Source of the DNA: Sphingomonas vulcanisoli
GTDB taxonomy: Bacteria; Pseudomonadota; Alphaproteobacteria; Sphingomonadales; Sphingomonadaceae
NCBI RefSeq assembly: GCF_011761305.1
Contig: NZ_JAAOZC010000001.1
Location: forward strand, 372,001-436,000
Direction of reading: 5' to 3'
Length of the DNA: 64,000 nucleotides
The notes below the pieces were generated by a model. That model was given only the letters and a program-made list of their open reading frames with translations, was not told where the DNA came from and ran no database searches. Of the stretch, positions 23,449-45,502 are shown piece by piece. The position numbers and the translations under genes were made by a program. Each line of letters starts with the position of its first letter. Positions within the stretch are counted from its first letter, which is position 1.

Positions 23449-23475
23449 GTGCTCCGGCGCCTGCCGGAGCGCTGG
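23449..23475 (+). repeat. CCGGAGC-type short palindromic repeat, single unit
   Basis: The unit begins GTGCTCCGGCG, has a 4-base centre and ends CCGGAGCGCTGG. It is the same unit that flanks the GIY-YIG pseudogene (34354, 34677, 34727) and occurs as a degenerate pair at 45399-45475. Here it stands alone between tRNA-Val and zapE. Confidence 0.75.
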
Positions 23476-23585
23476 ATCATCATGCGCCGCGCTTGCCGCC
23501 ACCGCTCCGGCCCGCGCCGAAGCACCGAGGTGCCTAGCGCCTTGATGAAGTCGGCTTTAGGGAAACGGCGAATGAAGGGGCGCGC

Positions 23586-33046: not shown

Positions 33047-34339
<1,293 letters not shown>

Positions 34340-34353
34340 GGCTTAGCGACATT

Positions 34354-34380
34354 GTGCTCCGGCGCAGGCCGGAGCGTTGG
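34354..34380 (+). repeat. CCGGAGC-type palindromic repeat, left flank of GIY-YIG unit
   Basis: One unit beginning GTGCTCCGGCGCAGGCCGGA and ending GCGTTGG, 14 bases after the sucB stop and 10 bases before the ATG of the broken GIY-YIG gene. The same orientation and spacing recur right after that gene. Confidence 0.8.
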
Positions 34381-34390
34381 ATGGAGTAAG

Positions 34391-34673
34391 ATGAAGCCCG
34401 GCTGGGTGTACCTGATTGCCAATCATCGCCGCGGGCAAACCTATCTAGGCGTGACGAGCAACCTCCCACAGCGGGCGTGGCAGCATCGCAACGGCATGAT
34501 GGACGGGCACGCTAAAGATAAGCGTCTTGCTCGTTTGGTATGAAACGTTCGATGATCTGCAAGAGGCAAGGGCCAGCGAATATCGGATGAAGAAATGGCG
34601 GCGGGCCTGGAAGTTGCGCTTGATCGAGGAGCGTAATCCTGAATGGCGCGACCTATATGAGACGTTGTTCTGA
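34391..34673 (+). pseudogene. GIY-YIG nuclease-domain protein, broken by a frameshift
   Basis: The ATG at 34391 opens MKPGWVYLIANHRRGQTYLG followed by VTSNLPQRAWQHRNG, the GIY-YIG core (here VYL...TYLG with the following conserved arginine). It stops at a TGA at 34541-34543. In the +1 frame the homologous remainder continues without a break as LVWYETFDDLQEARASEYRM, then KKWRRAWKLRLIEERNPEWR and DLYETLF, ending at 34671-34673. The shift must lie around 34512-34532. Joined, the protein would be about 94 residues, the usual size of this stand-alone UvrC-like nuclease family. A true frameshift, a sequencing error, or programmed shifting cannot be told apart here. Palindromes flank it on both sides. 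Confidence 0.82.
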
Positions 34674-34676
34674 GCG

Positions 34677-34753
34677 GTGCTCCGGCGAAGGCCGGAGCTT
34701 TGGCGGCAAGCGATGCACCCTGCTCTCCAACGCTCCGGCCTTCGCCGGAGCAC
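34677..34753. repeat. head-to-head pair of CCGGAGC-type palindromes, right flank of GIY-YIG unit
   Basis: A forward unit at 34677-34703 (GTGCTCCGGCGAAGGCCGGA...) and an inverted unit at 34727-34753 (...CCTTCGCCGGAGCAC) are separated by 23 bases and are reverse complements of each other, forming a 77-base palindrome. It starts 3 bases after the GIY-YIG stop and ends 13 bases before the lpdA ATG, just ahead of its TGAGG ribosome binding site. Confidence 0.85.
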
Positions 34754-34766
34754 ATTGAGGCAAAAA

Positions 34767-36161
34767 ATGGCTGACTTTGATTTCGACGTTTTGGTGATCG
34801 GTGCGGGGCCCGGCGGTTATGTCGCGGCGATCCGGGCGGCGCAGTTGGGGATGAAGGTCGCTTGCGCCGAGAGCCGGACGACGCTGGGCGGCACCTGCCT
34901 GAACGTCGGCTGCATTCCGTCGAAGGCACTGCTCCACGCTTCCGAGCTGTATGCAGAAGCGCAGAGCGGCGCGCTGGCCAAACTGGGTGTCAAGATCGAG
35001 AGCATGAGTCTCGATCTCGATACGATGCACGGCCAGCGCAAGGATGCAGTGACGCAGCTCACCGGCGGCATCGAATATTTGTTCAAGAAGAATAAGGTCG
35101 AGTGGCTCAAGGGCCTCGCCAGCTTCACTGGCAAGGATAGCGTGCAGGTCGGCGATCGCACCGTGCGCGTGAAGAATATCGTCATCGCCACCGGCTCGTC
35201 GGTGACACCGCTGCCTGGCGTGACGGTCGATCAGAAGGTCGTGGTCGATAGCACGGGCGCGCTGGAACTGCCCAAGGTGCCAGAGCATCTCGTCGTGATC
35301 GGCGGCGGCGTGATCGGGCTGGAGCTGGGCTCGGTATGGAAGCGGCTCGGCGCCAAGGTGACCGTCGTTGAGTTCCTCGATCAGATCCTGCCCGGCATGG
35401 ATGGCGAGGTCCGCAAGGAAGCCAACAAGATCTTCAAGAAGCAGGGCATGGAGCTCAGGCTTTCGACCAAGGTGACTGGCGTCACCGTCTCGGGCGATAA
35501 AGCGACGCTGACCGTCGAGCCCTCCGCCGGCGGTGCAGCCGAGACGATCGCGGCCGATGCCGTGCTCGTCGCGATCGGGCGCCGCGCCAATACCGATGGC
35601 CTCTCGCTCGACAAGGCGGGTCTCACGCTCAACCAGCGTGGCCAGATCGAGATCGATCATGATTTCGCCACCGCGGTGCCCGGCATCTGGGCGATCGGTG
35701 ATGTCGTCCCCGGCCCGATGCTCGCGCACAAGGCCGAGGACGAGGGCATTGCCGTCGCCGAGAATATCGCGGGCCTCACCGGCATCGTGAACCATGATGT
35801 GATCCCGAGCGTGGTCTACACCGCGCCTGAGATCGCGGGCGTGGGCCTTACCGAAGAGCAGGCGAAGGCGGCGGGCGAGATCAAGGTCGGCAAATTCCCG
35901 ATGCTCGCCAACAGCCGCGCCAAGACCAATCACGAGCCCGATGGCTTCGTGAAAGTGATCGCCGATGCCAAGACCGACAAGGTGCTGGGCGTATGGATGA
36001 TCGCCAGCGTCGCGGGCAGCATGATCGCGCAGGCCGCGCAGGCGATGGAATTCGGCGCGACCAGCGAGGACATCGCCTACACCTGCCACGCGCATCCCAC
36101 CCACGCCGAGGCCTTCAAGGAAGCGGCGATGGCGGTGACGGGCAAGCCGATCCACATCTGA
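34767..36161 (+). CDS. lpdA: dihydrolipoyl dehydrogenase (E3)
   Basis: 464 residues from the ATG at 34767 (TTGAGGCAAAAA before it). The FAD-binding start FDVLVIGAGPGGYVAAIRAA, the redox-active disulfide GGTCLNVGCIPSKALLH (Cys about 43 and 48), the NAD-binding VVIGGGVIGLELGSVW and the C-terminal HAHPTHAEAFKEA with the catalytic His-Glu pair are all intact. It reoxidises dihydrolipoamide for 2-oxoglutarate dehydrogenase and related complexes, passing electrons to NAD+. It belongs with sucA and sucB, but a 400-base repeat/nuclease element now separates it from sucB, which may alter co-expression. Confidence 0.98.
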   Translation: MADFDFDVLVIGAGPGGYVAAIRAAQLGMKVACAESRTTLGGTCLNVGCIPSKALLHASELYAEAQSGALAKLGVKIESMSLDLDTMHGQRKDAVTQLTGGIEYLFKKNKVEWLKGLASFTGKDSVQVGDRTVRVKNIVIATGSSVTPLPGVTVDQKVVVDSTGALELPKVPEHLVVIGGGVIGLELGSVWKRLGAKVTVVEFLDQILPGMDGEVRKEANKIFKKQGMELRLSTKVTGVTVSGDKATLTVEPSAGGAAETIAADAVLVAIGRRANTDGLSLDKAGLTLNQRGQIEIDHDFATAVPGIWAIGDVVPGPMLAHKAEDEGIAVAENIAGLTGIVNHDVIPSVVYTAPEIAGVGLTEEQAKAAGEIKVGKFPMLANSRAKTNHEPDGFVKVIADAKTDKVLGVWMIASVAGSMIAQAAQAMEFGATSEDIAYTCHAHPTHAEAFKEAAMAVTGKPIHI

Positions 36162-45182: not shown

Positions 45183-45502
45183 CGGAAACTCTCCTTGAAA
45201 GCCTTGGGGTGGCCTGGTCGATCAGCGGTCAACCGCGACCGCCTCACTCTTCTAGGAGGGTGATTTCGGGTCCGCGCGCCCGGCTCGACCGACGTCACCC
45301 AGGTCTCGACATTCCGCCGATCGCACCGACGAACGGTCTAATCGTTTCGGCGAACGACGTGATTAACGGGTGAGTGGCGCGCGAATCGAAGTTGCCGCGT
45401 TCCGACGCAGGCCGGAGCGTTGGGTATTTGCGTGCAATGCTGAGTGTTTCAGCGCTCCGGCTTGCGCCGGAGCACGGCGCTCCGAGTGTGCGCTAGGTGC
45501 GA
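45183..45502. other. 320-base intergenic region holding a degenerate palindromic repeat
   Basis: Upstream region of the UrcA gene (minus) and the 3' side of the next minus-strand gene. No protein gene is supported. Its main content is the repeat pair at 45399-45475; the rest, about 45200-45390, shows no clear promoter boxes or hairpins to my eye. Confidence 0.55.
45399..45475. repeat. head-to-head CCGGAGC-type repeat pair (degenerate)
   Basis: A forward unit GTTCCGACGCAGGCCGGAGC at 45399 and an inverted unit AGCGCTCCGGCTTGCGCCGG at 45451, ending AGCAC, lie 25 bases apart. This is the same forward-then-inverted 77-base layout as at 34677-34753 but with mismatches in the first unit, as expected of an older copy. 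No GIY-YIG reading frame adjoins it. Confidence 0.75.

Follow-up and report, generated by a model that had tools for sequence, protein, structure and literature searches.

What is a small GIY-YIG nuclease gene doing between copies of a palindromic repeat in the gap between sucB and lpdA, and is the arrangement a mobile insert or a resident of the genome that carries it? The locus lies in a 64,000-nucleotide stretch of Sphingomonas vulcanisoli DNA, analyzed at its full length and called the window in what follows. An earlier note on this DNA had proposed that the gene and its palindromes were an inserted package of 400 bases, in which the nuclease helps the palindrome to spread by analogy with REP palindromes and their RAYT transposases. 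The locus was compared with 119 genomes of the same family and with named genomes from many phyla.

The sucB–lpdA gap and its palindrome

The gap is bounded on the left by sucB (33047..34339, + strand) and on the right by lpdA (34767..36161, + strand), the two neighbors that define the address of the nuclease; the context in relatives was established by tblastn. A 27-base palindromic unit (34354..34380, + strand) ends 10 bases before the ATG of the nuclease gene (34391..34673, + strand), which starts at 34391 and ends with a TGA at 34671–34673. Three bases past this stop begins a 77-base head-to-head pair (34677–34753), with a first arm at 34677..34703 on the + strand and a second arm at 34727..34753 on the − strand, inverted relative to the 5′ unit. 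This is the layout that the earlier note had described, and the coordinates agree. The two arms of the pair are 96% complementary. Folding of the single strand is far stronger for the pair than for its shuffles (z −8.9), and the 5′ unit forms a hairpin (z −3.9).

The nuclease gene itself is a frameshifted pseudogene, as had been noted before: the reading frame of the N-terminal half stays open up to 34543, and the C-terminal half continues in another frame to 34673. A base error in the assembly could conceivably account for the frameshift. The first half matched the Pfam GIY-YIG profile PF01541 at 27.8 bits, above the cut-off of 22.6, and the second half gave no match to PF01541 at the same cut-off. 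By comparison, an intact relative in genome G046 scored 53.5 bits, and L001, a second copy in the genome of the window, scored 56.4 bits. Nucleases of this type are about 95 residues long, with catalytic residues conserved in the relatives; Y7, Y18, R28, H32, E65 and N84 were invariant across ten A1 sequences, the window's relatives, and are presumably the GIY-YIG catalytic set of two tyrosines, an arginine, a histidine, a glutamate and an asparagine. NCBIfam assigned no family to the three nuclease proteins checked, and the only PDB relative found by sequence was 1zg2 (UPF0213 protein BH0048).

A close and intact relative, very like the window copy, was found in G023 (L325). Damaged or partial copies were seen in three genomes: the genome of the window (G000), with its frameshift; G119, with a stop; and G071, where the gene is recognizable in the last two thirds only. 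In all ten relative pairs tested, one of which (L105) contains a stop and several of which have a saturated dS, pN was well below pS, and the same was true of both halves of the window gene when compared with G023.

The window palindrome is present beyond chance: 12 matches with at most three mismatches were found at seven places in the window, where chance predicts 0.23, and no shuffle out of 100 gave more than two. Two of these places are solitary pairs of the same unit family, at 23451..23523 (two mismatches per arm, spacing 53) and 45399..45473 (two and one mismatches, spacing 55), and none of the window's GIY-YIG matches falls at either pair. In the genome as a whole, we listed 43 perfect GCTCCGGCNNNGGCCGGAGC units, 46 units by the broader exact pattern GCTCCNGCGNANGCNGGAGC, and 55 sites within one mismatch of GCTCCGGCGNAGGCCGGAGC, for which the reversed pattern gave none. 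When up to three mismatches were allowed genome-wide, the looser pattern gave 124 + 130 sites against 141 + 153 for the control; since this is no excess, only the strict palindrome counts are meaningful. Among the neighboring units of opposite orientation read by hand in this genome, with both arms listed, 21 of 23 had starts 50–55 bases apart, and the REPIN-like inverted pair is therefore the common form. No target-site duplications were noticed by eye in the flanks of the pairs.

L001, the other small GIY-YIG gene of the genome of the window, is intact, encodes 130 amino acids and is bracketed by a different palindrome, GTCCCGAGCGAAGTCGAGGGAC. That this gene should likewise lie between copies of its own palindrome suggested a general rule.

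Nucleases and palindromes across genomes

The family was scanned with the Pfam GIY-YIG profile in 119 genomes, giving 110 listed places and, with the two of the window's own genome, 112 in total. For each place, the 150 bases before the domain were compared with the 250 bases after it, and a local score of at least 16 was taken as a shared repeat. The count of flanking palindromes that the earlier note had called for gave 92 of the 112 sphingomonad places with a repeat common to the two flanks; among 1,903 displaced windows, the rate was 0.8%. In a stricter cross-genome control, in which the upstream side of one locus was compared with the downstream side of another, 10.7% of 1,977 random pairs reached the threshold, because members of the family have unit types in common. 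The order of units in the 92 bracketed loci was +[gene]− in 43, +[gene]−+ in 12 and +[gene]+− in five, the window included. Homologues lacking palindromes, which the earlier note had named as evidence against a link, do exist (20 of 112, not all of them intact), but they are only a minority. Among them are six genes fused to trmJ (L041, L043, L045, L048, L049 and L065) and L127, which belongs to another GIY-YIG clade.

The rule extended beyond the family. In named genomes of many phyla, 80 loci were found, and 62 of the 79 with enough flanking sequence were bracketed, compared with 0.6% of 1,136 windows; these loci include isolates of Rhodanobacter, Dechloromonas and Pseudohoeflea along with many metagenome-assembled genomes, in which misbinning is possible. 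A further 29 new class-level loci were bracketed in 13 cases, against one of 157 windows, and ten of the 16 unbracketed ones resemble other GIY-YIG clades by eye while six do not. These results support a link between nuclease and palindrome that is both real and general.

Several fusions were observed in the course of this survey. Fourteen clade-A GIY-YIG genes, in 14 genomes, are joined in frame to a gene for an RNA methylase of the SpoU/TrmJ type (L037, L038, L040, L041, L043, L045, L046, L048, L049, L052, L063, L065, L067 and L071, with Pfam run on L038 only). Palindromes are absent from six of these and retained in eight, and the fusions look like domestication in progress. From reading of the translations, other clade-A nuclease genes continue in frame into proteins that are JAB/MPN-like (L060, L082, L091 and L107), alanine-racemase-like (L084) or RluD-like (L085); the linkers of these fusions look palindrome-derived.

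We then compared nuclease types with palindrome types. Between genomes, the protein similarity of 91 bracketed nucleases correlated with the similarity of their 5′ units (Spearman 0.48), a value as high as which was reached in none of 300 permutations. In 50 of 61 loci, the nearest foreign nuclease had a unit more similar than that of any other bracketed nuclease in the locus's own genome; it was worse in nine and tied in two. Within single genomes, none of the 38 nuclease pairs with a similarity below 0.5 reached a unit score of 14, and similar units were found in three of the 19 pairs (16%) with a similarity above 0.5. At a protein similarity of 0.7–0.8, units were similar in 66% of 53 pairs at the same address and in 61% of 94 pairs at different addresses; these proportions are nearly equal, so the palindrome follows the nuclease and not the site. 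As judged from these sequence comparisons, the proposal that nuclease type predicts palindrome type is supported, and joint inheritance of nuclease and palindrome could account for part of the pairing.

A more detailed correspondence was considered and set aside. There are 11 clade-A proteins of the DFT type (L001, L047, L050, L051, L077, L078, L079, L088, L116, L119 and L134), nine of which go with the loop GCG[ACT]AGTC, the other two having been missed by the pattern used; proteins of the GYT or GFT type go mostly with the loop GCNTGTC. The DFT and GYT/GFT motifs are at most candidate specificity residues, with L038 and L046 breaking the rule and L071 having GCGAAGTC in its distal unit. Because of these exceptions, and because the DFT proteins belong to a single address group, where common descent confounds the comparison, we make no claim about specificity residues.

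The size of the palindrome population was also compared with the presence of the nuclease. Pattern GCTCCNGCGNANGCNGGAGC occurs at least once in 37 of 119 genomes, with 1 to 129 copies. At least two units were present in all eight genomes with an intact nuclease at sucB–lpdA and in 17 of the 111 others; when the remnants in G000 and G071 were added, the numbers became 10 of 10 and 15 of 109. With the bracketing units excluded, their number being set by hand, at least three units remained in 7 of 10 genomes against 13 of 109 (Fisher p = 1e-4), an association that is favored by the presence among the ten of G000, where the search originated. G095 and G061 each have just two exact units, and these bracket the nuclease, as do two of the three in G046. 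Conversely, G049, G077, G078 and G105 have 73, 47, 25 and 16 units, respectively, without a nuclease like that of the clade; their best scores against the window clade were 103.5, 114.8, 107.9 and 99.1 bits, compared with at least 148 for the clade, and the nucleases fetched from G049, G077 and G105 are bracketed by other palindromes. Unit-rich genomes without the matching nuclease imply either that loss is common or that something else maintains the units, and the GCTCC-type populations in these four genomes are possibly orphans left after nuclease loss or the work of another maintainer.

An old address and the origin of the palindromes

That the 400-base package looked inserted was not borne out by its context in related genomes. 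Nucleases of the window clade lie at sucB–lpdA in 11 genomes (G000, G119, G023, G051, G046, G095, G082, G072, G116, G061 and G071), and sister clades lie about 0.1–1.3 kb upstream of sucA. Six further named loci share the sucB–lpdA address (L176, L177, L178, L179, L185 and L189), and L187 is apparently the G061 record. The address holds across many genera, with intact copies in genera other than that of the window. When the 119 genomes were searched with a profile of the window clade, all 12 best matches were in the suc operon, at sucB–lpdA or upstream of sucA, nine of them at sucB–lpdA or twice in one genome. Because this address is shared by relatives and pN/pS is low, we regard the nuclease as an old resident and not a recent insert; the gene probably broke recently in the genome of the window. 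Recent insertion of the whole package is ruled out for the window clade by the shared address.

The gap has a varied content elsewhere. Of 26 such gaps measured, four (G000, G119, G023 and G051) hold the nuclease. The gap contains palindrome pairs and no nuclease in G121, G024, G105, G045 and G027, as judged by visual reading in two of these. The earlier note had counted palindromes here without the gene against its proposal; such cases were thus found, but the palindromes are of other types. Gaps of 48 bp in G030 and 11 bp in G021 are without clear units, in genomes that are too distant for base-exact comparison. In L147 (G122) and L152 (G120), of the same genus, the gap holds other genes, which in G122 are possibly a DUF433/PIN-like pair by eye. 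The site looks like an insertion hotspot.

The locus in the window is probably what is left of the GIY-YIG equivalent of a REPtron, the arrangement in which a RAYT gene resides among its own repeats, with a nuclease that would read, cut and maintain its own palindrome pairs. The gene is resident and old; the palindromes vary and disperse. In such a system, a vertically kept nuclease would recognize its palindrome as a folded single strand and cut it, probably in single-stranded form. Such cuts, made at replication forks or in the course of DNA uptake, could then multiply or maintain the inverted pairs, which would be non-autonomous passengers of the nuclease as REPINs are of RAYTs. Breakage of the nuclease in the genome of the window would have left an orphan population of pairs. 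Spreading of the palindromes by the nuclease, as we infer it, fits the data. The parts of the earlier RAYT analogy that stand are the link between nuclease and palindrome, the pairing of types and a REP/RAYT-like layout in a genome that yielded no RAYT, but the recently inserted mobile package does not. More tentatively, small GIY-YIG nucleases may constitute a second, independently evolved engine of extragenic palindromes across many phyla and also where RAYTs are lacking, each nuclease spreading its own inverted pairs via single-strand cleavage and keeping an ancient address while the palindrome co-diverges.

A less probable explanation, to which we nevertheless give some weight, is that the resident nuclease modulates genome exchange or the uptake of DNA. 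In that case it would cut incoming single-stranded DNA at the palindromes, which would multiply by other means or be selected where they limit recombination. The model for this is the Ssn nuclease of Neisseria, which is said to cut incoming single-stranded DNA at its NTS repeats. Shared addresses and low pN/pS do suggest a host function. A neisserial palindrome is also found at some of the loci: units with the dRS3 pattern ATTCCC(N8)GGGAAT, as given in the part of PMC3898611 drawn on here, flank 17 of the 79 named nuclease loci, 14 of them on both sides, compared with 13 and none of 1,139 control windows, and in the family set they flank 12 of 112, four on both sides, compared with two and none of 1,466. 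Against a role in uptake, the tight spacing of the pairs and the patchy copy number, from 0 to 129 per genome, resemble a replicating element.

That nuclease and palindromes jump together as one autonomous element is improbable. The layout is indeed like that of inverted terminal repeats, for 48 of the 112 loci no neighbor recurs elsewhere in the set, and of the 30 best named loci (L176–L205), 16 are at suc places and 14 have no suc gene of more than 50% identity alongside. However, homology of neighbors within 1.7 kb sorts 64 of the 112 loci into 11 groups, and the largest of these span 14, 12 and 8 genomes; paralogous neighbors may have contributed to these groups, as is probably the case for L115. 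Together with the confinement of the 12 best clade matches to the suc operon, this argues against a jumping package, and close relatives of the window clade do not carry it at different sites, as those of an autonomous transposon would. For this clade, an autonomous package is largely refuted by the shared address.

It is more doubtful still that a RAYT or an IS200 transposase moves the palindromes as REPINs, with the nuclease as a bystander. Y1_Tnp matches were found in 22 of the 119 genomes, and some family members have weakly scoring Y1 proteins of RAYT-like size, including one in the unit-rich G023. However, G105, G077 and G049, which are unit-rich, gave no Y1_Tnp match, nor did G046 and G109, and the Y1 search of the genome of the window found no RAYT. 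Its only Y1 match, L035, is on another contig (G000:C10) and has flanking hairpins of its own; by reading, we take it to be an IS200-type tnpA. A RAYT or IS200 mover was rejected for this genome on the strength of the IS200-like character of this sole Y1 gene and of the unit-rich relatives without Y1. Furthermore, a bystander would not follow the palindrome type. Lastly, although intergenic hairpins are common, it is hardly credible that ordinary terminator-like hairpins flank a small gene by chance, an explanation ruled out by the displaced windows (0.8% and 0.6%) and opposed both by the lack of a bracket in other GIY-YIG clades (L127 and the ten class-level loci assigned by eye) and by G095 and G061 with their sole two exact copies around the nuclease.

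Relation to known systems

As described in the portions of PMC6006769 and PMC8049555 used here, a REPtron consists of a resident RAYT/TnpA-REP gene for each repeat type, flanked by its REPs; it is inherited vertically, its repeats are commoner where the gene is present, and the locus is not thought to be mobile as a unit. The nuclease loci are alike in having one stable gene per repeat type, placed between repeats of its own family, in their inverted pairs, and in the greater number of repeats where the gene is found. They differ in the enzyme, which is a GIY-YIG nuclease in place of a Y1 HUH transposase: by Pfam, the nuclease protein of the genome of the window matches GIY-YIG only and is not a RAYT. 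The signature named in those portions of the two papers is GT[AG]G, whereas the window unit starts with GTGC. REPINs, too, consist of two units in inverted orientation, the form seen in 21 of 23 neighboring units here, but they are duplicated by a RAYT, and none was found in this genome, nor any Y1 match in G105, G077 and G049.

The dRS3/NIME repeats of Neisseria are related to these loci in that the dRS3 palindrome is one of the unit types flanking GIY-YIG nucleases, and differ in the stem, which in the window unit is GCTCCGGC. In the part of PMC3898611 drawn on here, dRS3 is linked to a phage integrase, and the term GIY-YIG is absent. Among the matches listed in our literature search, no paper connected nucleases of the GIY-YIG type with dRS3 or REP-like repeats. 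One nuclease family links seemingly unrelated repeats, from the sphingomonad units to the dRS3-type palindrome. The pairing points to a candidate enzyme for every palindrome family, and extragenic palindromes are present also where no RAYT was found; closely related nuclease–palindrome pairs offer direct material for testing specificity.

GIY-YIG homing endonucleases have the same domain and catalytic residues, but the gene studied here lies between two protein genes, with its repeat on either side, and no intron was noticed. The closest precedent is probably the Ssn family of Neisseria meningitidis, reportedly described in a 2025 study in Nature Communications as site-specific single-strand GIY-YIG nucleases that go with NTS repeats. 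Ssn is said to cleave only single-stranded DNA, in a sequence-specific manner, and to have many homologues, each with a different cognate sequence. Given this work, the statement in the earlier note that no such unit had been described is probably wrong. On that account, both systems combine a GIY-YIG nuclease of small size with a short, specific, many-copy repeat and with homologues whose cognates differ; the many-copy repeat that reportedly accompanies an Ssn nuclease is found here as well, cognate by association and not by cleavage. The sphingomonad loci may differ in having the gene between its own repeats, at an old shared address, with tight inverted pairs and a pairing of types tested across the family. 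If Ssn is as reported, this kind of nuclease–repeat system is known, and what the present loci probably add is the REPtron-like organization, the sharing of addresses and a test of the pairing.
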